The notes beneath the pieces are model-generated. The model worked only from the letters and a program-made list of their open reading frames with translations, was not told where the DNA came from and made no database searches. Positions 2,909 to 56,396 of a stretch of DNA of 64,000 bases are shown piece by piece. The stretch is from NCBI RefSeq assembly GCF_018141405.1, contig NZ_CP058648.1, positions 263,001 through 327,000 on the forward strand, in the 5' to 3' direction. The first letter of the stretch is position 1, and each line of letters starts with the position of its first letter. The DNA is from Serpentinicella alkaliphila. Lineage in GTDB: Bacteria > Bacillota > Clostridia > Peptostreptococcales > Natronincolaceae. The translations under genes and the position numbers were made by a program.

Positions 2909-3427
2909 CTATAATAAATATCTAAATAGTATTCTCGTCCCTATATAGGTTCCTACGAACATAAATGCTCCAAATACCCAGCCATGAAGGGAAAATGAAG
3001 GTATTGCACTAAAATAGGAACCAATATTACAACCAAAGCTTAGTCTGCTTCCATACCCCATCATAAGGCCTCCTAGGAGCCCAAAAAATAACTGTTTCTT
3101 ATTTTTAATTTTTTTCAATTTAAACTCAGATGCGAGGAGTATAGCCATAAGCGCTCCTAGTATAACTGCTATATTAATCACTGAATAATTATTTATTAAA
3201 AATGTTTCTCCTGACTGATGACTATTATCATAAACGCGGAAGTAATACCAGTTTGAAACATCAATACCTAGTTTTCCAAGTGCATAGGCACCCCAATAAA
3301 AAAAACTATTGGTGACCTTCCAAGCATTGCCTGTAAGTGCTAAGATAATAATGTTGGAAAAGGCTAATATCAGTGCTCCAACCATATACGGCCAAGGTTT
3401 CTTAAATAACTTCTTATATAAGCTCAT
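2909..3427 (-). CDS. YeeE/YedE-family transporter, C-terminal half (split gene)
   Basis: Membrane protein (172 aa) with four to five hydrophobic segments, of the YeeE/YedE (TsuA) family that imports thiosulfate or related sulfur species. The diagnostic C-terminal motif is YGSRLSFGCNIGSYFSAIPS followed by SLHGW, containing the conserved Cys. The ATG at 3427 is chosen because it sits behind GGGGTGGG and starts after the TusA-like gene has ended; reading further upstream would overlap that gene. In many bacteria the protein is one chain; here it is divided between this gene and the one at 3686, with the TusA-like gene between. The three probably form one operon. Substrate inferred from family only. 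Confidence 0.85.
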   Translation of the reverse strand: MSLYKKLFKKPWPYMVGALILAFSNIIILALTGNAWKVTNSFFYWGAYALGKLGIDVSNWYYFRVYDNSHQSGETFLINNYSVINIAVILGALMAILLASEFKLKKIKNKKQLFFGLLGGLMMGYGSRLSFGCNIGSYFSAIPSFSLHGWVFGAFMFVGTYIGTRILFRYLL

Positions 3428-3437
3428 TGACCCACCC

Positions 3438-3665
3438 CTATCTACTTTTCTCAATATATATCTCCCATTCCCCATCACTAATCTCTGCATAGTCCACATC
3501 GTGCCCCTGTTTTTTTGCCCAATCTATAACATTTATTATAGAGCATGTGTGATCTGTTTCCATAATCAGAACATCTCCTATAGCCATGTTCTCAAGCTTT
3601 TTTAGTGCTTTAATTAAAGGAATAGGGCATGCTTCATACATGCAATCAATTCTTTCAACAGCCAC
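3438..3665 (-). CDS. TusA/SirA-like sulfur carrier protein
   Basis: Small cytoplasmic protein (75 aa, GTG start behind GGAGGAAG) of the TusA/SirA/YedF fold, which carries persulfide sulfur on a conserved cysteine. The CPxP motif is present as CPIPLIKALKKLE, at about residues 14-26. YeeE/TsuA genes are very commonly paired with such a protein (TsuB/YeeD), which is thought to receive or process the imported sulfur compound. Here it lies between the two halves of the split YeeE transporter with only 10-20 bases on either side, a strong contextual link. No DNA-binding role is suggested. Confidence 0.9.
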   Translation of the reverse strand: MAVERIDCMYEACPIPLIKALKKLENMAIGDVLIMETDHTCSIINVIDWAKKQGHDVDYAEISDGEWEIYIEKSR

Positions 3666-3685
3666 AAGACTTCCTCCTTACCCCA

Positions 3686-4378
3686 TTAAACAGACATTAT
3701 GCTGTTCTTTTTGTCATACCAATCGGCTAATTTATATAAAACTATTAGAATGATAATCTGTATTGTCATTGACAAAGGTAGTCCAAGATATTTTGGGAAA
3801 TAAACTACTGGTGACTCCGAAATGCACATTTTATCCCAAAATTCAAAATCCTTCGCTCCAATTAAAGTTCCGCCAATAAATCCTATCAAGACCACTACCT
3901 GAAGTAAAAAACCTTCTCCAATTCTAATAAGAGTCCCACTTGCACACCCACCTGCTATTACCATTCCGATACCAAATAGTACTGCGCCTACAATTGTATG
4001 GATACCCACTGGTTTTATCTGACTGGGTATATTATCTAGACTTAATGTAGCGTCATTTAAATGAAGTGGCTGAATGATTCCAAATCCTATGGTTGAAATA
4101 ATAAACGCAATGATAATTGCTTTAAATAGGGATGTACTTCCAATCATAATAGGATCTCGAAAACTTGCGACAAAACAGAATCTTGATCTTTGCAGTGTGA
4201 ACCCTATAAGTAGTCCCACCATCCAGAGTAAGCTAAATGTCCTATTTGTAAGTGCAAAATATATAAAGATCACTAAGCATACCAGTAGAACTAACCAGCC
4301 ATACTTTACTTGACTGTTTTTATTTTTCTCTCTCTGCTGCCTACTTTTCTTTAATTCTTCAATTTTGCTATTTGACAA
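3686..4378 (-). CDS. YeeE/YedE-family transporter, N-terminal half (split gene)
   Basis: Membrane protein (230 aa) with a charged N-terminal tail and five to six hydrophobic segments. Family motifs are GFTLQRSRFCFVASFRDP (around residues 59-76) and AGGCASGTLIRIGEGF (around 142-157), each with one of the cysteines thought to relay thiosulfate across the membrane in TsuA/YeeE proteins. The remaining half, with the SFGC motif, is encoded at 2909. It is the first gene of the sulfur operon and is transcribed away from the nucleoside hydrolase, with a 247-bp AT-rich divergent promoter region between them. The functional unit is probably a two-chain transporter. Confidence 0.87.
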   Translation of the reverse strand: MSNSKIEELKKSRQQREKNKNSQVKYGWLVLLVCLVIFIYFALTNRTFSLLWMVGLLIGFTLQRSRFCFVASFRDPIMIGSTSLFKAIIIAFIISTIGFGIIQPLHLNDATLSLDNIPSQIKPVGIHTIVGAVLFGIGMVIAGGCASGTLIRIGEGFLLQVVVLIGFIGGTLIGAKDFEFWDKMCISESPVVYFPKYLGLPLSMTIQIIILIVLYKLADWYDKKNSIMSV

Positions 4379-4625
4379 TGTCTTCAGCTCCTTATAAAGG
4401 TCTATTATATGTTAAAATATAAACAAACCTTTAATTATAATTATACAACAATACTTATCCCTTAAATATACAGGATACTTATATAGGATAATAATTAATT
4501 ATAATATGCTTTACTTCCTATTATAACACAATTTGTGGTATAATTGTTAATATATAGGTAATTGAATTTATTGCGATCATTATATTTATTTGCTAACTTT
4601 TAATGTGAAATGGGGAGATTATGGC

Positions 4626-5495
4626 ATGCATAGAATTATTTATGATTGTGATAACACAATGGGTGTAAAAGAAAAGGATGTGGATGATGGCCTAACCCTT
4701 TTATATTTATTAGGAAGGGAAGATATAGAAATATTAGGAATAACAACTACTTATGGTAACAGCACTATAGAAGTGGTATATACCAACACTTTACAGATGA
4801 TTAAAGAACTTCACCTTCATCATATTCCTCTTTTGAAGGGAGGTCCTTCGTCAGAGAAAAGACAAAGTGATGCTGCTAGGTTCTTATGCGAGAAGGTGGC
4901 TTCGCATCCAAAAGAAATTACTATTGTTGCTACTGGCTCTCTTACAAACCTTTTAGGCGCCTACGAAATGGATATTCATTTTTTTGAAAACGTCAAAGAG
5001 ATTATTCTTATGGGTGGTATAACAGAACCTTTGATTATCAATGGTAAAAATTTAGATGAGCTTAATTTTTCTTGCGATGCCTATGCTGCCTACAAGGTTC
5101 TCACCTCTGGTGCAAAAATTACTGTAATCACAGGTCATATATGCTTACAAGCTCTTTTCGGAAAGCGGGAATATAAAAGGTTGATTGAAAACGAGGACAT
5201 AAAGATATATCAGTATATTAGGAATAAAACAATCCATTGGTTTGAGTTTATAAGGAATTATTTTGGTATAGATGGTTTTTATAATTGGGATATTGTTGCT
5301 GCTGTATATTTGTCTAATCCGGAACTTTTTAATAATAACATCATTCATTTGTCACCCACCCCTCAAGATTTAAAAACAGGATTTCTTAAACAATCTGACA
5401 AAGGATACCACATTAATATACCTACTGCTATAAAAGATATGGAGAAGTTTAACGAGATTATATTTGCTACATGGGCAAATATAAAATATAAATAG
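4626..5495 (+). CDS. Nucleoside hydrolase (inosine/uridine-preferring family)
   Basis: Cytoplasmic N-ribohydrolase-family protein (289 aa) that would cleave ribonucleosides to base and ribose. The N-terminal calcium site is present in the variant form YDCDNTMGVKEKDVDDGLTL, where the usual DxDxGxDD is stretched by an insertion. IVATGSLTNLL near residue 100 and ILMGGI near residue 127 are family core motifs. The ATG at 4626 is preferred over an upstream in-frame start at 4590 because it follows a GGGGA ribosome site. It stands alone between the sulfur genes. Nucleoside hydrolases and ADP-ribosylglycohydrolases often co-occur in salvage clusters, which may connect it to the remnant at 1379. Confidence 0.87.
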   Translation: MHRIIYDCDNTMGVKEKDVDDGLTLLYLLGREDIEILGITTTYGNSTIEVVYTNTLQMIKELHLHHIPLLKGGPSSEKRQSDAARFLCEKVASHPKEITIVATGSLTNLLGAYEMDIHFFENVKEIILMGGITEPLIINGKNLDELNFSCDAYAAYKVLTSGAKITVITGHICLQALFGKREYKRLIENEDIKIYQYIRNKTIHWFEFIRNYFGIDGFYNWDIVAAVYLSNPELFNNNIIHLSPTPQDLKTGFLKQSDKGYHINIPTAIKDMEKFNEIIFATWANIKYK

Positions 5496-5499
5496 TAAC

Positions 5500-5525
5500 G
5501 GGAAGCCTAGGGCTTCCCTTTATTA
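5500..5525 (+). terminator. Rho-independent terminator after nucleoside hydrolase
   Basis: Perfect 8-bp stem GGGAAGCC/GGCTTCCC with a 3-base loop followed by TTTATT, five bases after the stop codon. It also separates this gene from the convergent rhodanese gene. Confidence 0.9.
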
Positions 5526-5537
5526 TTATATACTTTA

Positions 5538-6452
5538 TTATTTTTCAATTTGTTCTCCGCTCACAGAGTATTCAAGCCATGATCCATCATAGTTCTTTAT
5601 ACTGTCATATCCTAAAAGCTCCTGAAGAACAAATAGTGTATGAGCAGCGCGTACTGCACTCTTACAATATGGCATGATCGCTTCTTTATCAGATGTGACT
5701 CCCTTTTCCTCATAAATGGTCTTTAGGTCATCAACAGATTTGAATGTACCATCTTGATTTATAGTATTTGTCCATTCAATCCAAACTGCTCCTGGGATAC
5801 GACCTTCCTTCCATTCATCTTCACTTCGGGTATCTAATACTAATAAATTCTTATTATTAAAGCTTTCCTTCACTGAATCTAAAGTAGCAAAAAGATTTTC
5901 ATTGGCTTCCTTAGCTTTATAAGTACTAGTCGCAACTTCTGCTGCTTTTCCTGTTTCATATCCAGCAGCCTTCCAAGCATCTCGGCCACCGTTTAATAAT
6001 TTTACATCTTTATGACCATAAACCTTTAGTGCCCACCAGATACGTGACGCCCACAGATTATTGGCTTCGTCATAGACTACAATTGTATCTTTTTCAGTTA
6101 TACCTAAAGAACCCATTAGCTCTTCAAAGTTTTCTTTATTAGGTAACATTCCCTTTACACCATTGACTTCTACACTTGTTGCATTTCTATCTATGTCTAT
6201 AGCTGTTGGTATAAATCCACCTAACAATTTGTTTTTACCATCTCGTGCATCCAATACCTTTACTTTACCATCATCAATTAGGTCTTTTAATTCCTCAGCT
6301 GAAACCAAACTTCCTGGATTAGAATACCCGTTCTCACTTGCTTGTGCTGGTTCTGAATCAGACTTGGTAGTAGTCTGGTTTGAACAGCCCACTACACTGA
6401 AGATAAGGGTAATTGCCAGAATAAAAACTAACATTAACTTTGGCTTAAACAT
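5538..6452 (-). CDS. Two-domain rhodanese (thiosulfate sulfurtransferase-like) lipoprotein
   Basis: Exported sulfurtransferase (304 aa) with a lipoprotein signal ending FSVVGC (Cys near residue 23), so it acts on the outer face of the membrane. Two rhodanese domains follow, roughly residues 48-170 and 185-300. The C-terminal domain has the active loop PYCKSAVRAAHT with catalytic Cys; in the N-terminal domain the equivalent loop reads VYDEANNLWASR and has no Cys, the normal situation in tandem rhodaneses, where the first domain is structural. Near the YeeE/TusA genes, it could supply or process thiosulfate or persulfide at the cell surface; that link is inference from position. Confidence 0.93.
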   Translation of the reverse strand: MFKPKLMLVFILAITLIFSVVGCSNQTTTKSDSEPAQASENGYSNPGSLVSAEELKDLIDDGKVKVLDARDGKNKLLGGFIPTAIDIDRNATSVEVNGVKGMLPNKENFEELMGSLGITEKDTIVVYDEANNLWASRIWWALKVYGHKDVKLLNGGRDAWKAAGYETGKAAEVATSTYKAKEANENLFATLDSVKESFNNKNLLVLDTRSEDEWKEGRIPGAVWIEWTNTINQDGTFKSVDDLKTIYEEKGVTSDKEAIMPYCKSAVRAAHTLFVLQELLGYDSIKNYDGSWLEYSVSGEQIEK

Positions 6453-41187: not shown

Positions 41188-42588
41188 TTATTTTAAAGCT
41201 GCATTTCTTCCTGCTATTTTACCAAATACAATGTTTTCTGTCGTATTATTCCCTGCCACACGTCCTGAACCGTATAGTCCACCAACTATTTCTCCTGCAG
41301 CATATAGCCCTGGAATAGCTACACCATTAGTATCTGTTACCTGCGCGTTTTCATTAATTGTAATACCAGCCATTGTATAATGTGACGATGGTCTAACTTC
41401 TACACCATAGAAAGGCCCAACAGTAACTTTTCCTACAGTTCCTCTTCCAAACTCATCAACTCCATCATTAAATGATTTAATTGATTCTACTACAACTGCT
41501 GGATCTAGCTCAAGCTTTTGAGCTAATTCTTCGATAGTTTCCGCTTGAATCATTCTGCCCTTTTCAATGGCTGCCTTTCCATTACTAGTTTCTGCAACTT
41601 CAGAATCGAAAATTACATATCCTACTCTGTCTTTTTGTGCTAACACTTGTGGTACTAAATCTAATGGTTTAAGTGTTTCATTTGTAAATCTTACACCATC
41701 TTTATTTAGTAATACTCCGCCACCTTCAGCATTTATTACAGATTCTCTAATCCAGTAACCTGGAGTTGCTAAAGGTCTCATTTGATGGAACTCCATATCT
41801 CTAGTTCCTGCACCTAGTTCTACTGCCATTCTAAATCCATCTCCCGTTGGTCCAGCAGTACTCATTACATTATGAGCATTTGCATACTTAGGATTGTATT
41901 CTCCAATAAGATCTGTTGCATTACCAAAACCACCTGTAGCAAGTATTACAGATTTAGCCTCAATAACAGACTCATTTCCATCCTTATCCACTACCTTTGC
42001 TCCTACTACTATTCCATCTTCAACAACTAATTCTGTTGCCGTTGTATTTACCCTAACATCTACTCCAAGCCTTTGAGCTTCCTTTTGATAAGCACCAACT
42101 AATAAAGATCCAAAATGACCTTCTGATGGAATTATCCACCATGGCTCTTTTTCATTAAGCTTATAGCTTAAACCTAGTGAAACTAACCATTCATAAGCTT
42201 CATTACTATTTTCAGCTAAAATTCTTACTAGATTTTCATCTGGTAAATTATTTCCTGTCTCCATAGTTCTTTTTATATGATCTTCAACTGTAAACGGTAC
42301 TCCTGCTTCTTCATGTAATTCTGTATCCGATGCAGTTAATCCAGTAGCAGAAATTATTGTATTTCCACCAATCATAGGCATCTTTTCAACTAAAATAACT
42401 TTAGCTCCATTTTCTGCTGCTGTTATTGCAGAAACTAATCCAGCCCCACCGCCACCATTAACTAGAACATCTGCACTATTACTAACTTCTGGTTTATTAC
42501 TAGCCGGTTGTTTGTTACTAGAACAACCTACTACGATTAATGAAAAAACTAAAATTAACGATATTAATAAAACTGACTTCTTTTTCAT
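41188..42588 (-). CDS. Extracytosolic FAD-dependent reductase lipoprotein (flavocytochrome-c/FrdA-like)
   Basis: Lipoprotein (466 aa; lipobox IVVGC near residue 22) of the fumarate-reductase/succinate-dehydrogenase flavoprotein group. FAD binding: DVLVNGGGGAGLVSAITAAE near 45-64 and GGNTIISATG near 78. Substrate region: DMEFHQMRPLATPG near 259, GVRFTNETLKPLD near 298, SSHYTMAGITINE near 406 and GGLYGSGRVAGNNTTENI near 437. The His and Arg of the last two motifs match fumarate reductases, but QMRP replaces the usual QxHP, and the proton-relay Arg expected after FxNE is not evident. The reductant is likely the FMN lipoprotein encoded three genes upstream. The substrate is probably not fumarate; unknown. 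Confidence 0.88.
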   Translation of the reverse strand: MKKKSVLLISLILVFSLIVVGCSSNKQPASNKPEVSNSADVLVNGGGGAGLVSAITAAENGAKVILVEKMPMIGGNTIISATGLTASDTELHEEAGVPFTVEDHIKRTMETGNNLPDENLVRILAENSNEAYEWLVSLGLSYKLNEKEPWWIIPSEGHFGSLLVGAYQKEAQRLGVDVRVNTTATELVVEDGIVVGAKVVDKDGNESVIEAKSVILATGGFGNATDLIGEYNPKYANAHNVMSTAGPTGDGFRMAVELGAGTRDMEFHQMRPLATPGYWIRESVINAEGGGVLLNKDGVRFTNETLKPLDLVPQVLAQKDRVGYVIFDSEVAETSNGKAAIEKGRMIQAETIEELAQKLELDPAVVVESIKSFNDGVDEFGRGTVGKVTVGPFYGVEVRPSSHYTMAGITINENAQVTDTNGVAIPGLYAAGEIVGGLYGSGRVAGNNTTENIVFGKIAGRNAALK

Positions 42589-42717
42589 TTTACTATTCCT
42601 CCCATAAGTAGTTTTTACTCTAACTCTTGTTAGTTAATTAACTGTCATATATGTTATATAATTATCATACTATGATCAAAACTATTGTCATACTGTCATA
42701 TGTCCTTTATTAATTAT

Positions 42718-42743
42718 AAAAGTCCCTTAGAAAAGGGACTTTT
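42718..42743 (-). terminator. Terminator after the response regulator gene
   Basis: Stem AAAAGTCCCTT/AAGGGACTTTT with a 4-base loop, overlapping the stop codon of the response regulator. Confidence 0.88.
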
Positions 42744-43362
42744 GTCTCGACCAGTATATAGCAGCTTCAGTTCTGTTATTAACATTTATTTTTTTCATAA
42801 TTTTTGTAACATTATTCCTAACTGTTTTTTCAGCAATAAAAAGCCTTTCTGAAATTTCTTTGTTCGTTTTACCCTCACAAATCAAATCCAAAATCTTTTT
42901 TTCTTGATTCGAAAGCACATTATCAAACTCATTATTCTGACGTACAGCAGAAATAACTTTATTTATAACAGCTGAATCATAAATTGATTTTCCCAAAGAG
43001 ACATCATGTATAGCTGATATTATCTTATTACTATCAATATTTTTTAAAAGAAAACCGTCAGCCCCTGCCCTTATGGACTCTACAATAATCTGATCATCAC
43101 CATAGGCTGTTAAGATCATTACTTTGACATTAGGTAAAATAGCCTTCATTTTCCTACACCCTGTTACGCCATCACCATCAGGTAATTTTAAATCAAGAAT
43201 AACTATATCAGGCATTAAATCCTTTACTTTTTCATAAGCATCTTCAAGGGTTTCTGCCTCGGCACAAACTATATATTTGGGATTTCTTTCAATAACAGAT
43301 TTAATGCCCCATCTTACAACCGCGTGGTCATCAACTAAAAGTATCTTTGTTATATCACTCAT
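42727..43362 (-). CDS. NarL/LiaR-type response regulator
   Basis: Two-component transcription regulator (211 aa). Receiver domain about residues 5-120: LLVDDHAVVRWGI (acidic pair), PDIVILDLKLPDGDGV (phospho-Asp near residue 56), LTAYGD and the conserved Lys in FLLKN near residue 106. LuxR-type DNA-binding domain about 145-205: LSNQEKKILDLICEGKTNKE and AEKTVRNNVTKIMKKI. All phosphorylation residues are intact. Its ATG overlaps the end of the sensor kinase gene by four bases. Located between the FAD reductase and FMN lipoprotein genes, it very likely controls them. Confidence 0.95.
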   Translation of the reverse strand: MSDITKILLVDDHAVVRWGIKSVIERNPKYIVCAEAETLEDAYEKVKDLMPDIVILDLKLPDGDGVTGCRKMKAILPNVKVMILTAYGDDQIIVESIRAGADGFLLKNIDSNKIISAIHDVSLGKSIYDSAVINKVISAVRQNNEFDNVLSNQEKKILDLICEGKTNKEISERLFIAEKTVRNNVTKIMKKINVNNRTEAAIYWSRQKSLF

Positions 43363-44762
43363 AATAAGTTCGCTCCCCTTGGAATGTTTAGTATCACTTC
43401 TGTTCCCCTGCTACTACTATTTATTATTAATTTACTGCTTATAGATATAGCCCTTTCTTTCATAGTTATTAAACCATAACAGTTTTCTGAAAAAACCTTA
43501 TCTACATCAAAACCTTTACCATTGTCTTTGATAAGCGCAATAATTTGTTTTGCCTTAGGAGTAATTGATATTTCAATTATAGATGCATCAGAATGCTTTA
43601 TAGAGTTACTCACAGCTTCCTGGACAATATAGTATAATTGGGTTAGTTTTAGGGCTGAAATATCATTAATAATAATATCTGAGATTTCAAAATTAAGTTT
43701 AATTGAAATACCTGTAATACTCTCATATTTTACAATCATATCCTGTAGCTTTATATATAGCCCTTCAATACTGTCACTCTTAGATGAAAACTCCTTGATA
43801 AAACCTCTTACCTGCTCTATTGTATAATTAAGGTTTTCTTTAACTAATAGCAAATCCTTTACTTGTTGCTCTACTTCGACTGATTCAATTATATTCTCAA
43901 TATGAAGGCCTGTAGCAAATAGATTCTGTATAACTACATCGTGTAGTTCCTGGCCTAATTTCTTTCTTTCGTCGCTAATAATATTTTGTTTAGATAGTTT
44001 TGTCATTATTTCATTAGACTCCCACTTAATTAAATCAATAATTGATATAAATAGTATTGTAATAGCAAGAGCGGATAAGGCCCTACCTAATTCAACTGGA
44101 AACCCGAATAAGCTTTTGAACAACTCTTTATTTATAATATTTGCAGGAAAAAAACTTCTTTTTTCTACTACTAAGCCAGCTAATACTCCATATGTTGCAA
44201 ATGGAATGGCTAAAGCATAGTATTTTCTCACAACATTTTTAATAGGTAGGTTTAGAAGCTCTCTAGCATTTCTAACAAGAGCCCAAGCCGTAACCATGCC
44301 ACCTGGAAACCCTATAAAGTATCTAGCAGCAATATCATCGATTATTAAATAATATATAAAATTATTCTTAGAAGTTGTAAACGTTGCAATAAATGCTACT
44401 ATCCATAGAGCTAATAATATATAGGGTATCTTTTCAAAAATTCTATAGTATTTACCCCTAGATTCAATTAATTTTATTCCAAATATAAGAAGAAAAACAA
44501 ATGATATAGCATTTAAGAATATTGCTAATATTAACAAATATAACCTTCCGGTAGTATCCATGAGTGCAATCCTAATCATTACAACCCACTCCATAATCCC
44601 ATGTATAACCCCAAAGCATCCTAAATATTTTATATGTATAGCAATATTTAGTTTACTACCTGTAGTAGCATTTTGCTGTAGGGCTGAAATACCCATTGAA
44701 AAAAATGCTAGCCCATAGATAAAAAATATAAAAACATATGTGTTATTAAAATTAAACTCCAT
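43359..44762 (-). CDS. Membrane sensor histidine kinase (HisKA_3 / NarX-DegS class)
   Basis: Sensor kinase (467 aa). The N-terminal half (about residues 8-255) holds about seven membrane segments and no large extracellular domain, so it probably senses a membrane or redox signal. The dimerisation helix has the phospho-His in ERKKLGQELHDVVIQNLFAT near 268-287. The ATPase domain has QEAVSNSIKHSDASIIEISI (N box) near 388 and LIKDNGKGFDVDKV (G1 box) near 413, then GLITMKERA. It is transcribed with and overlaps the response regulator. The ligand is unknown; the neighbours suggest an electron acceptor or the flavin redox state. Confidence 0.94.
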   Translation of the reverse strand: MEFNFNNTYVFIFFIYGLAFFSMGISALQQNATTGSKLNIAIHIKYLGCFGVIHGIMEWVVMIRIALMDTTGRLYLLILAIFLNAISFVFLLIFGIKLIESRGKYYRIFEKIPYILLALWIVAFIATFTTSKNNFIYYLIIDDIAARYFIGFPGGMVTAWALVRNARELLNLPIKNVVRKYYALAIPFATYGVLAGLVVEKRSFFPANIINKELFKSLFGFPVELGRALSALAITILFISIIDLIKWESNEIMTKLSKQNIISDERKKLGQELHDVVIQNLFATGLHIENIIESVEVEQQVKDLLLVKENLNYTIEQVRGFIKEFSSKSDSIEGLYIKLQDMIVKYESITGISIKLNFEISDIIINDISALKLTQLYYIVQEAVSNSIKHSDASIIEISITPKAKQIIALIKDNGKGFDVDKVFSENCYGLITMKERAISISSKLIINSSSRGTEVILNIPRGANLL

Positions 44763-44835
44763 AAAAACACCTCAAGGTTAAGTCTTACGTATATTTAATA
44801 ACAAAATTCTTTAGAAGACAAGTACATAGAAAATA

Positions 44836-44875
44836 AAAAAATCCTACCTAATTTCTATTAGGTAAGATTTTTTGA
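44836..44875 (-). terminator. Terminator after the FMN-binding lipoprotein gene
   Basis: AAAAAATC, TACCTAAT / ATTAGGTA, GATTTTTT with TTCT loop; strong hairpin flanked by T-runs, separating this gene from the two-component pair. Confidence 0.9.
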
Positions 44876-44885
44876 ATAGTTATTA

Positions 44886-45626
44886 TTATCTTGTAGCTTT
44901 TTCTAAAGCTCTTTCAACAGCTTGCTTCCATTGTACGCTTGATCCAGTAGCTCCTGTGAAAGTATCTACTTCAGGACCATTAGCTTCTACGAATCTAGCT
45001 GCCATTTCTACAGCTGCTTCATGGAAAGTAGCATATGGGTACTCTTCATTTTTAAATACTTCTTTTGGCACATCATCTTTAGTGAAAGTAGTAGCTAATA
45101 ATTTAACTTCTACTATTTTATCGTCTTCAATTGTTACTAAAGCAACTGAACGACCTTTATCTGTAGCATCAGATACACCATAGAATGTTCCGTTAAATAA
45201 CGTAGTTGCTGAAGCTGGCTCAACTAAAGCCTTTTCTAAAGCTCTCTCTACAGCAAGAATCCAGTTACTTGAAGAACCAGTTGCACCAGATACTGTTTCA
45301 ACATCAGTTCCATTTGCCTCTACAAATCTTCCTGGCATCTCAGCTTTAGCCGTATGGAATGCCTCATAAGTATATGCTTCGCCTTTTTCTACTCCAATTC
45401 CATTAAACTCAGTTACTTGTACATCAACAATAACATCATTTTCAATTGTTACTTCAACCATACCATAACCTTTGTCTGTACCATTACCGAAAGCTACGTA
45501 TGTACCGTCGTTGTATTTGTTCGTTGTTGGTGTTGGTGCATTAGTTGATGGTTGCTCTGTCTTTGTACATCCAACAACAGCAAGCATCGTTACCATTGCT
45601 AAAACTAAAGCTATAATTTTTTTCAT
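44886..45626 (-). CDS. Lipoprotein with two covalent-FMN-binding domains
   Basis: Secreted lipoprotein (246 aa; lipobox LAVVGC, Cys 20), then a Thr/Pro/Ser-rich linker (21-37) and two FMN_bind domains (about 38-130 and 143-246). Each ends in a flavinylation motif: SGATGS at residues 113-118 and TGATGS at 224-229, matching the [ST]GA[ST]x[ST] sequence to which ApbE links FMN through a phosphoester, here on Ser. Both domains also share the DKG-V-ED--I-V pattern. It should be an outer-face electron carrier with two flavins. It has its own terminator and promoter region; apbE is transcribed divergently. Confidence 0.93.
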   Translation of the reverse strand: MKKIIALVLAMVTMLAVVGCTKTEQPSTNAPTPTTNKYNDGTYVAFGNGTDKGYGMVEVTIENDVIVDVQVTEFNGIGVEKGEAYTYEAFHTAKAEMPGRFVEANGTDVETVSGATGSSSNWILAVERALEKALVEPASATTLFNGTFYGVSDATDKGRSVALVTIEDDKIVEVKLLATTFTKDDVPKEVFKNEEYPYATFHEAAVEMAARFVEANGPEVDTFTGATGSSVQWKQAVERALEKATR

Positions 45627-46110
45627 TTTACTTCCTCCCCTTTGTTAAATAAATAATTATTATGTACAATATAATTATAATCCAAATCCCCATTATTTTC
45701 AATAGTAAACAAGAGTTGTTGTTAGTTAATATAAAATGTTTATATTTTCTAAATATTTTTAAATCAAATATACTTAAGTCCATAAGAGAATTACATCTAA
45801 TTTCCTAATTTTCACTTAATTAATAAAATAAAAATATTTTGGGTTATAAACAAAATAAATTAAATAATAATAATTACTAATTAATTTTAACCATTTACAT
45901 TTAATTATTGTTTGCTACTCATAATATGATATAATTATTTAGGTTATAGTAGTATATATGAAAACAGTTGGAATCTACGTGACCTGTAACTATATCACTA
46001 AAGTAGTTTCTATAATATTTTGAATACTATCAGAAAGTGAGGTGAACAGCGGTAAGTCTATTTGTCTTTAAGTCATGGATAAAAAGACAATAACTTTTGC
46101 CGCGATACCC
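45627..46110. other. Divergent intergenic region between the FMN lipoprotein and apbE
   Basis: About 480 bases, very AT-rich to 45940 and less so from 45950 to 46070. It must hold the promoters of both divergent genes and is the obvious site for the NarL-type regulator. An untranslated leader of unusual composition precedes apbE; I could not match it to a known riboswitch class. Confidence 0.5.
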
Positions 46111-47154
46111 ATGAAAAATACATTAAAAAAAATTACAATATTAACTTTAGTACTTCTTTTTTTACTTTATGGCTGCAAATCAAATGATTCGCAAAATTCT
46201 CTAAAGCTTGTTAAAGAAGTGGATTTTGTATTAGGTACAATGGGCAGGATAAATGTTTTGTCAGAGTCAGAAGAGGATGGACGAAGGGCTATTGCAAAAG
46301 CCTTTGATAGAGTCCGTGAAATTGAAAATAAGATGAGTACTTCCATAGCAGGTAGTGATGTATATCTACTTAACGAAAATGCCGGAAATAATTATATAAC
46401 AGTTGATAAAGAAACTCTTTATGTAATTAATAAAGGTCTAGAATACTATGAACTAACTGGTGGGGACTTTAATATTTCTATAGGGGCACTAATTAATTTA
46501 TGGGGTATTGGAAAAACAAATAAGGTTCCATCACAAGAAAATATTCATGCTGCAATGGAAAATATAGATATAAATGCAATAAACATTGACAATCAATCTG
46601 TAAGAATAGATATTCCAAATGTACAAATAGATTTAGGCGGAATTGCTAAAGGATACGCAGTAGATGAAGCAATAAAAGTTTTAAGAGAAAATGGAATTAA
46701 AAGTGGTCTGGTTGATTTAGGTGGGGATATATATGCCTTTGGTAAAAAGGCTGATGACAGCTCATGGAATGTTGGAATTCAGGACCCTGAAAAGGGTGCA
46801 AATCCGATTGCAAGTATTCCTCTTACTGATAAGTCTATAGTTACTTCAGGTGATTATGAACGTTTTTTCATGGAGGATAATATAAGATATCATCATATAA
46901 TAGATCCAAAGACTGGATATCCTGTACGTAATGACCTTAGAAGTGTAACGATCATTTCTGACTTATCAATCGATGGGGATGTACTATCAACAGCTGTTTT
47001 TATAATGGGATTAGAAAAGGGCATGTCCTTAATTGAATCTCTTGATGGTGTTGAAACCTTAATAATTACCAATGATAAAAAAATATATACTAGTTCAGGT
47101 CTAAAGGACCAGTTAAATATATTAAATGATAGCTATGAGGAAAGGGAGTTGTAG
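46111..47154 (+). CDS. apbE: FAD:protein FMN transferase lipoprotein
   Basis: ApbE-family enzyme (347 aa from ATG 46111) that transfers FMN from FAD to Ser/Thr in flavinylation motifs outside the cytoplasm. A signal peptide with lipobox LLYGC precedes the enzyme. Family sequence: GTMGRINVLSE near the start, GGDFNISIGALINLWGIG near residue 127-144, VQIDLGGIAKGYAVDEAIKV near 170-190, GLVDLGGDIYAFG near 201 and TSGDYERFF near 246 with HHIIDPKTGYPV; the Mg-binding Asp and Thr near the end are in DGDVLSTAVFIMG. A start at 46075 is possible, but the one used gives a clean lipoprotein signal; neither has a strong ribosome site. Its target is probably the adjacent double-FMN lipoprotein. Confidence 0.93.
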   Translation: MKNTLKKITILTLVLLFLLYGCKSNDSQNSLKLVKEVDFVLGTMGRINVLSESEEDGRRAIAKAFDRVREIENKMSTSIAGSDVYLLNENAGNNYITVDKETLYVINKGLEYYELTGGDFNISIGALINLWGIGKTNKVPSQENIHAAMENIDINAINIDNQSVRIDIPNVQIDLGGIAKGYAVDEAIKVLRENGIKSGLVDLGGDIYAFGKKADDSSWNVGIQDPEKGANPIASIPLTDKSIVTSGDYERFFMEDNIRYHHIIDPKTGYPVRNDLRSVTIISDLSIDGDVLSTAVFIMGLEKGMSLIESLDGVETLIITNDKKIYTSSGLKDQLNILNDSYEEREL

Positions 47155-54989: not shown

Positions 54990-56396
54990 CTAATGTATTA
55001 ACTGATAGCGCTTACTAATACTTTTATAACCTAGCTTTTCTAGGCGAGTATTGGTAAGCGTTCTTTGTAGAATTGGGCTTTTGGATATTCTCCAATAACC
55101 TTTTCTTGTGTTTGCATATTCCCAAGATTTTTGTTTATCAACACCCAACTTCTTTAGGTTTATAAACTTCGTTTTAATCTTTTTCCATTGTTTCCATATA
55201 CATGCCCTCAATCGTCGTCTTATCCATTCTTCAAGACTTCTAATTCTTGCCTTCGCTTTCGCGATACTGAAATAGTTAATCCAACCGACTGTGATTTCAT
55301 TTAGTCTTTTAAGGCGATACTCCATACTTATACCTTTATTACGATTCGTTATTTCTCGAATCTTCTCCTTAAATCTCCTATATGATTTTTCATGTATTCT
55401 TACTTGGACTCCATTTCTATTGAAGTAAAATGAAAACCCTAGAAATTTTCTTCTAGTTACTAAGTCTACCTTGCTCTTTTCTCTGTTGACTTTTAGCTTT
55501 AGCTTTCCTTCTAGCAATCTTGTCATACTCTCCATGACCCTAATTCCTGCCTTTTTGCTTTTAACATAGATATTACAATCATCCGCGAAGCGGCAGAATC
55601 TGTGTCCTCGACCTTCTAATTCTTTATCTATTTCATCAAGCATTATATTTGAAAGTAGTGGACTAAGGGGTCCACCTTGAGGTGTGCCTTCTTCGCTACT
55701 TACTTTTAAACCTTCTATCATAATGCCACTCTCTAGATATTTCCTTATTAGTCTAATGACTCTCTTATCTTTGATTCTTCTTGACAGGCGTTCCATAAGT
55801 ATGTCATGATTAACTTTATCGAAAAACTTCTCCAAGTCCATATCTACGACCCAACGATTCCCTTCGTTAATGTATTCTTTTGCCTTTGAGATAGCCATAT
55901 GTGCATGTCGGAATCCATAGCTACGCTCTGAGAAGGTTGGTTCGTAGATTTTGTTAAGCTCTCGTGCTATCGCCTGTTGTATCATTCGGTCTAGCACCGT
56001 AGGTATCCCTAGTAATCTTGTTCCTCCATCAGGTTTCGGTATTTCTACTCTCCTAACGGGGGAGGGAATATACTTTCCTTCTAGTAACCTTGTCTTTATA
56101 TTCAGCCAATGATTGACGACAAATCCACGAAGTTCATCGTATCTCATGCCGTCAACACCATGACTTCCTTTATTGGCAATTACTCGTTTCATAGCCATTA
56201 ACATATTATCTCTGGCTAGAATTCTATCGAGTAGGTCACTAGTATCAACTAATCTATCGTTTTCTCTTTCTCTCTTTGAGTTTCCAAGGACATCACTCAG
56301 CGCCCCTTGATTACCTCGAAGTTCCACTTCTACTTGCTCAAGGCGACCTAAATATTTAGTTGTCTGCTTTCTCTGTGATTGTTCTAAGTCTTTCAA
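54990..56396 (-). CDS. ltrA: Group II intron reverse transcriptase/maturase
   Basis: Intron-encoded protein (468 aa) that splices the intron and copies it into DNA. RT blocks visible: RRVEIPKPDGGTRLLGIPTV near residue 116, AYGFRH-like SYGFRHAHMAI near 161, VVDMDLEKFFDKVNHDIL near 184, GTPQGGPLSPLLSNIMLDEI near 236-255 and the catalytic FADD (CRFADDCNIYV) near 272. The maturase X domain follows (RRKFLGFSFYFN near 315), then INYFS and a C-terminal DNA-binding region. There is no endonuclease (HNH) domain, as in class C. The reading frame is uninterrupted. It is encoded inside the intron, starting about 400 bases from its 5' end. Confidence 0.95.
   Translation of the reverse strand: MKDLEQSQRKQTTKYLGRLEQVEVELRGNQGALSDVLGNSKRERENDRLVDTSDLLDRILARDNMLMAMKRVIANKGSHGVDGMRYDELRGFVVNHWLNIKTRLLEGKYIPSPVRRVEIPKPDGGTRLLGIPTVLDRMIQQAIARELNKIYEPTFSERSYGFRHAHMAISKAKEYINEGNRWVVDMDLEKFFDKVNHDILMERLSRRIKDKRVIRLIRKYLESGIMIEGLKVSSEEGTPQGGPLSPLLSNIMLDEIDKELEGRGHRFCRFADDCNIYVKSKKAGIRVMESMTRLLEGKLKLKVNREKSKVDLVTRRKFLGFSFYFNRNGVQVRIHEKSYRRFKEKIREITNRNKGISMEYRLKRLNEITVGWINYFSIAKAKARIRSLEEWIRRRLRACIWKQWKKIKTKFINLKKLGVDKQKSWEYANTRKGYWRISKSPILQRTLTNTRLEKLGYKSISKRYQLIH

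Follow-up and report, generated by a model that had tools for sequence, protein, structure and literature searches.

At positions 41188-47154 of a 64,000-nucleotide stretch of the Serpentinicella alkaliphila genome (contig NZ_CP058648.1, positions 263,001 to 327,000; hereafter the window), five genes probably encode a module for flavin-based electron transfer outside the cytosol, controlled by its own two-component system. The proteins are an FAD-dependent oxidoreductase lipoprotein (RED), a response regulator (RR), a histidine kinase (HK) with a seven-transmembrane (7-TM) sensor domain, a flavin carrier lipoprotein (CAR) and an ApbE lipoprotein. An initial annotation of this DNA had proposed such a module, and the proposal is supported by a kinase/regulator link kept in many genera and by a conserved promoter element. 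The two-component system is the best-supported part of the module; what is new here is a sensor domain and a regulon that are both undescribed. Extracytosolic electron transfer by flavinylated proteins is widespread, and we found no paper in the open-access literature on the switching of its genes. As the regulator, operator and partner genes can be named here, that question becomes directly testable.

Profile assignment confirmed all five genes where the initial annotation had placed them. On the minus strand the order of transcription is CAR, HK, RR and RED, and ApbE is divergent on the plus strand. The genes and the features within and between them are as follows:

41188-42588, minus strand: RED, 466 aa, extracytosolic FAD-dependent oxidoreductase lipoprotein (PF00890), lipobox VVGC with Cys22
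42727-43362, minus strand: RR, 211 aa, NarL/LuxR-type response regulator with Response_reg and GerE domains and Asp57 as the probable phospho-acceptor
43359-44762, minus strand: HK, 467 aa, 7-TM sensor domain (residues 1-255) followed by HisKA_3 (His274) and HATPase_c
44836-44873, minus strand: intrinsic terminator-like hairpin between CAR and HK
44886-45626, minus strand: CAR, 246 aa, lipoprotein with two FMN_bind stretches, proposed two-flavin electron carrier
45273-45290, minus strand: first ApbE motif of CAR, SGATGS, presumed to be flavinylated at Thr116
44940-44957, minus strand: second ApbE motif of CAR, TGATGS, presumed to be flavinylated at Thr227
46075-47154 (start may be 46111), plus strand: ApbE, lipoprotein, FAD:protein FMN transferase (PF02424, E 2e-91)

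The host genome is a single contig of 3.26 Mb, from a GTDB family shared with Natronincola, Alkaliphilus and Anaerovirgula. It also holds a second ApbE and 13 FMN_bind matches; of its four full PF00890 proteins, two are FMN_bind fusions.

We scanned an alignment of the kinase against 84,980 species genomes to obtain named loci, and surveyed 297 genomes order-wide with thresholds of E <= 1e-130 for RED and E <= 1e-20 for the sensor kinase. RED was found in 12 genomes and the kinase in 24, at 37 places. All 12 RED genomes harbour the kinase (hypergeometric probability 3.4e-15, shared ancestry being ignored), and in 11 of them the two genes are adjacent. Two kinase places are interrupted by contig ends; among the 35 that could be evaluated, 29 copies adjoin RED or an FMN-type lipoprotein. 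Approximately 24 of these partners are certain RED or FMN_bind proteins, and five belong to a 350-aa lipoprotein type. Beyond these 29, the kinase locus of genome G003 retains a C-terminal RED remnant; the kinase lacks a regulator there (L062:7465-7656), and the locus appears to be decaying.

Natronincola, Alkaliphilus, Anaerovirgula and Sedimentibacter have the order HK-RR-RED, whereas the order in Geosporobacter and Anaerosolibacter is HK-RR-CAR-RED; in Tindallia, Anoxynatronum and Alkalibaculum, HK-RR is accompanied by another motif-bearing lipoprotein. What is kept is thus HK-RR with RED or with an FMN carrier, and not the five-gene set suggested initially: ApbE adjoins the cluster only here and at locus L232 and is not a conserved feature. 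In other orders of the same phylum, 4 of the 40 loci that we read are flavin-linked. At one of these four, L231, the genes are arranged RED-HK-RR-CAR, and its RED is 71% identical to that of the window. In a tree of 136 kinases (FastTree, midpoint root), all 34 flavin-linked kinases fall within one clade of 41 members with a support of 1.00, and none of the 95 kinases outside that clade is flavin-linked.

A conserved element lies between RR and the partner gene, with the composition GGGACAWWTGTCC, approximately 20-22 bp, GGACATWTGACA, 24-25 bp and TATGATAA. The predicted operator therein consists of tandem GGACAWWTGTCC / GGACATWTGACA boxes with a separation of about 21 bp, located 24-25 bp before the -10 and upstream of partner genes. 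In the window, the corresponding elements are:

42661-42669, minus strand: TATGATAAT, a -10-like promoter element of RED that follows the operator by 24 bp; most orthologous loci keep this distance (24-25 bp)
42686-42691, minus strand: weak -35-like ATGACA adjoining the operator; such matches are equally common in shuffles
42694-42705, minus strand: box 2 of the predicted RR operator, GGACATATGACA, the sole exact GGACAWWTGACA in the 3.26-Mb genome
42736-42747, minus strand: AGACAAAAGTCC, a degenerate outer repeat resembling the operator, where the RR gene ends

We scored GGACAWWTGTCC within 200 bp of the RR stop codon (330 bp in two loci), allowing up to two mismatches. It is present in 28 of 31 partner loci versus 1 of 5 partnerless loci, a count that is partly circular because the consensus was taken from loci later scored; in 28 of the 31, the box score also exceeds 95% of the locus's own shuffles. 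Three observations do not suffer from this circularity. In genome G007, RED lies on a different contig from HK-RR, and both boxes and the -10 are nonetheless kept upstream of it. At L231, with its other gene order, boxes precede RED and CAR and none precedes HK. Finally, the single exact box of the host genome (42694-42705) is the one upstream of RED. Comparison of the loci thus shows the operator and its linkage with partner genes, and RR would be the protein that binds it. Shuffled sequence gives sigma-70 promoter matches at least as often as this region does, and we used only the match whose distance from the operator is conserved. As the operator sits just upstream of a poor -35, its position would suit activation of RED.

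These data bear on the possibility of a chance neighbourhood, in which the two-component system would regulate something else. In its favour, the window's exact order of five genes lacks conservation, and five kinase copies have no flavin neighbour. Order-wide co-occurrence and adjacency, the grouping of flavin-linked kinases in one clade and an operator that accompanies the partner gene even when unlinked nearly exclude it.

RED matches FAD_binding_2 (E 9e-68) in profile searches and, over its whole length, flavocytochrome c fumarate reductases (E 1.7e-67) and urocanate reductase (6e-55). The chain consists of an FAD domain only, without FMN or haem domains of its own. It narrowly passes the curated cut-off of TIGR01813, the flavocytochrome c/fumarate reductase-like model (304 versus 285 bits), and its orthologue in L231 scores under that cut-off, at 273 bits. 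RED does not reach the cut-off of any equivalog model, in line with its initial description as an unassigned reductase. A tblastn search of plasmids with RED returned only distant flavocytochrome c matches, at approximately 38% identity or less.

We mapped the active site on that of the Fcc3 fumarate reductase. The proton donor Arg402 and His365 are missing, their positions being taken by Pro308 and Arg271, and Thr377 and Arg381 correspond to Arg281 and Ile285, respectively. His504 and Arg544, which bind the substrate carboxylate, are retained as His403 and Arg443 and are conserved across the aligned REDs. In a set of 14 distinct REDs, the Arg402 site holds P, R, T or I, every member has Arg271, and R or K occupies position 281. 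Urocanate reductase requires its Arg402 equivalent, Arg411 (PMC7921117), which has no counterpart in RED either. A lipoprotein of the same genome, at L082, keeps the canonical Arg402 and His365 residues. Because the canonical residues are lost, the TIGR01813 pass is narrow and L082 is canonical, we consider RED a separate class, as judged from its sequence, whose substrate is not readable from known signatures. This substrate is probably anionic, since the carboxylate-holding site of fumarate reductase is lined in RED by two basic residues (R271 and R/K281) together with H403/R443. RED is a class of surface oxidoreductase whose active site is altered and which hence perhaps has a new electron acceptor. 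Two disrupted genes were noted in this superfamily. The RED of genome G001 is read in two frames (L061:9462-10801, residues 21-126 and 124-464), owing to a frameshift or an assembly error, and another PF00890 protein of the host genome is present as fragments in two short frames (L083:7374-7945; C1:2467394-2467945) next to kinase- and dehydrogenase-like genes and looks like a broken gene.

We regard RED as a likely reducing rather than oxidising enzyme. It could instead be an extracytosolic dehydrogenase or scavenging oxidoreductase, comparable to the ketosteroid and tricarballylate dehydrogenases of PF00890, which would pass electrons to CAR and inward and make the module an input. The lack of conservation of Fcc3 Arg402 and His365 speaks for this possibility, as does the fact that several dehydrogenase models of the superfamily rank next after flavocytochrome c. 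We nevertheless consider it unlikely: in both the sequence and the structure sets, RED is matched best by soluble flavocytochrome c fumarate reductases and by urocanate reductase, the His504 and Arg544 equivalents are retained, and the host is an anaerobe, in which such lipoproteins usually serve outside acceptors (PMC8238504).

The other parts of the module conform to flavinylation-based electron transfer. ApbE carries the catalytic motifs DLGGIAKGYAVD, HHIIDP and DGDVLSTA, and CAR has the features of an ApbE substrate, i.e. an exported FMN_bind protein with (S/T)GA(S/T) motifs, both SGATGS and TGATGS being present. Each of RED, CAR and ApbE harbours a lipobox cysteine, so the redox parts appear to be lipid-anchored, as had been anticipated. 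On these sequence features, the likeness to flavinylation-based respiration holds and the module can be placed among flavinylation-based extracytosolic electron-transfer systems; to call it a candidate new respiratory system, as was done at first, goes beyond the evidence.

Related lipoproteins were found at other loci of the kinase. A family of 350-370 aa without a recognized domain, encoded beside the kinase pair, shows conservation of two SGAT motifs, which often read SGATRTV and ISGATVR (L093:5794-6843, L094:10189-11283 and kin in L092, L097, L225 and L232); it is possibly a new type of ApbE substrate. An AlphaFold2 model of such a 350-aa partner (FMNLP) reached a pLDDT of only 42. Carriers with three or more FMN_bind-like repeats, resembling multi-flavinylated proteins, occur beside paralogous kinase pairs at L070:9332-10633 and L261:1496-3970.

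The cluster contains no membrane donor; elsewhere, the host genome encodes an Rnf set, with C, D, G and B among its members, as well as NQR-like B-F. The only UbiA-family protein of the genome looks unlike MenA, which makes menaquinone doubtful in this host. An Rnf or NQR-like complex would therefore most likely be the electron source for CAR. The NQR-like operon (B, C, D, E and F-like; L078:6314-10262) had no NqrA visible nearby, and the Rnf set of the same genome is full.

We thus propose the following mechanism. The 7-TM HK would perceive a cue in the membrane or envelope, which is probably general and linked to the state of redox or of electron acceptors, and phosphorylate RR. Phosphorylated RR would bind the tandem inverted repeat of GGACAWWTGTCC-type boxes just upstream of the RED -10 and switch RED on. 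Outside the membrane, ApbE would load CAR with FMN at both of its (S/T)GAT threonines. CAR would receive electrons from the membrane donor encoded elsewhere and hand them to RED, which has no redox domain besides FAD. RED would then reduce an outside, probably anionic substrate without the usual proton-donor arginine.

Several observations weigh against this scheme. Cross-class, unlinked and rearranged loci reduce the circularity of the operator count but do not remove it. No operator box is present upstream of CAR, HK or ApbE in the window; its CAR may accordingly be outside the regulon, and the two-component control initially ascribed to it is not borne out. An adjacent carrier is missing at many RED loci, and 5 of the 35 evaluable kinase copies have no flavin neighbour. 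The approximately five 350-aa partner lipoproteins carry (S/T)GAT motifs, yet are not recognized as FMN_bind. Lastly, RED may not be an enoate-type reductase, because the Fcc3 Arg402 and His365 residues are missing.

HK and RR fit a NarL/DesK-type two-component system, with a HisKA_3 and HATPase_c kinase and an adjacent Response_reg-GerE regulator. No Pfam family matches residues 1-262 of HK at E <= 0.1. An AlphaFold2 model of this N-terminus (53 aligned sequences) shows seven long helices with a pLDDT of 93, in agreement with the predicted seven-TM kinase. Invariant residues of the sensor domain include F14, Y16-F20, G24, H54, E58, R147, N211 and R227. Against the NarX/NarQ, MctS and MadS equivalogs, HK scores 46-86 bits versus 500-700, with the alignment confined to the kinase core, and we found no literature on this kinase family among open-access papers. 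Two ideas about the sensor were not adopted. We read the domain as a helical bundle rather than as kin of GPCRs, as the structural matches are to generic 7-TM folds only (Foldseek best E 2e-3; VIA-align Z 11-14 at rmsd 4-6, values that unrelated helical bundles also give). A quinone cue was considered and not taken up because the sole UbiA-family protein resembles decaprenyl-phosphate phosphoribose synthase in its sequence and neighbours.

Kinases outside the flavin clade are found in Moorella-type Firmicutes, Chloroflexi, Nitrospirae, Omnitrophota and others. Multihaem c-type cytochromes adjoin the kinase in 51 of 102 non-flavin loci, the 102 including seven partnerless members of the flavin clade. 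Some non-flavin loci adjoin an NrfD/ferredoxin/cytochrome c3 set or DoxD. Within the same loci, the density of cytochrome genes differs weakly between genes near the kinase and those further away (69/702 versus 23/390), and we therefore fetched independent control regions. Proteins with at least three CxxCH motifs are encoded within four genes of the kinase in 14 of 34 Firmicutes non-flavin loci versus none of 20 control regions, drawn from a subset of the genomes holding these loci (Fisher 8e-4); per gene, the figures are 17/260 and 0/233 (1.7e-5). In several Firmicutes (L230, L234, L259, L267 and L268), the kinase pair is followed by a DoxD/DoxX-like membrane protein, and loci of this type keep their order after seryl-tRNA-synthetase-like genes.

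Since kinase relatives in cytochrome-bearing bacteria adjoin multihaem cytochromes, we view this as a regulator family for extracytosolic electron transfer which acquired its flavin partners in Clostridia. An interchange of flavins and cytochromes in extracytosolic electron transfer was described by Meheust et al. (PMC8238504), and the kinase loci parallel it at the level of the regulator, supporting the idea of flavins and haems as interchangeable parts of one respiratory strategy. The sensor residues are common to kinases with quite different partners, including multihaem cytochromes, and a common cue thus seems likelier than recognition of each acceptor by the kinase, contrary to the acceptor-controlled expression first envisaged. 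On balance, we lean towards a broader view, in which an undescribed two-component family (7-TM sensor with invariant H54, E58, R147 and R227) would be a general regulator of extracytosolic electron carriers with a shared GGACAWWTGTCC-type operator. In phyla that bear cytochromes, it would act on multihaem cytochromes; following a single switch on the kinase tree, its targets in Clostridia would be flavinylated lipoproteins and surface flavin oxidoreductases of a new class.

One might also suppose that the FMN lipoprotein is chiefly a signalling partner, which senses the outside redox state and signals to the 7-TM kinase, RED being one optional output. Many kinase loci do hold an FMN lipoprotein without a reductase (FMN3 and one-domain types), and the kinase itself lacks a large extracytosolic domain. 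However, an FMN lipoprotein is missing beside RED at several loci of the order, the neighbour in cytochrome-bearing relatives is a multihaem cytochrome, a usual electron carrier, and the operator precedes the partner gene and so marks it as a target. We find this explanation rather improbable, somewhat more so than the dehydrogenase one.

Flavinylated extracytosolic reductases, such as Listeria FrdA and Shewanella UrdA, were reportedly described by Light in 2019. They are also treated by Meheust et al. in 2021 (PMC8238504), a screen mapping flavinylated electron transfer in which the terms histidine kinase and response regulator are absent. Like FrdA and UrdA, the system of the window combines an extracytosolic PF00890 enzyme, FMN_bind domains presumably loaded by ApbE and a probable membrane donor encoded elsewhere; unlike them, it has a separate two-domain FMN carrier, a RED without Arg402/His365 equivalents and its own two-component system. 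RED shares its fold family, whole-length FAD domain and His504/Arg544 equivalents with Fcc3 (1qjd, 1d4c) and urocanate reductase (6t85-6t88). It differs from both by the absence of haem and FMN domains and by the four substitutions given above (Arg402 to Pro308, His365 to Arg271, Thr377 to Arg281 and Arg381 to Ile285), and by these signatures it is not a fumarate or urocanate reductase proper. The two-FMN_bind lipoprotein and the lipid-anchored ApbE recall PplA and Gram-positive extracellular electron transfer, whereas the NCBIfam PplA model gives 18.6 bits for a cut-off of 325 and the cluster has no Ndh2 or Eet genes. As in NarXL, DcuSR, TorSR and TtrSR, a kinase/regulator pair would be dedicated to a respiratory enzyme, with a NarL-like RR. 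The window's pair departs from these systems in its 7-TM sensor, outside known families, and in flavin lipoproteins as the proteins presumably regulated; it does not reach the NarX, NarL or TtrR equivalog cut-offs.

Two other features of the window were noted by eye. A reverse transcriptase/maturase-like open reading frame at 54990-56396 probably belongs to a group II intron, and two YeeE/YedE-like membrane proteins with a rhodanese-like lipoprotein (2909-6452) may form a sulfur-transport set.

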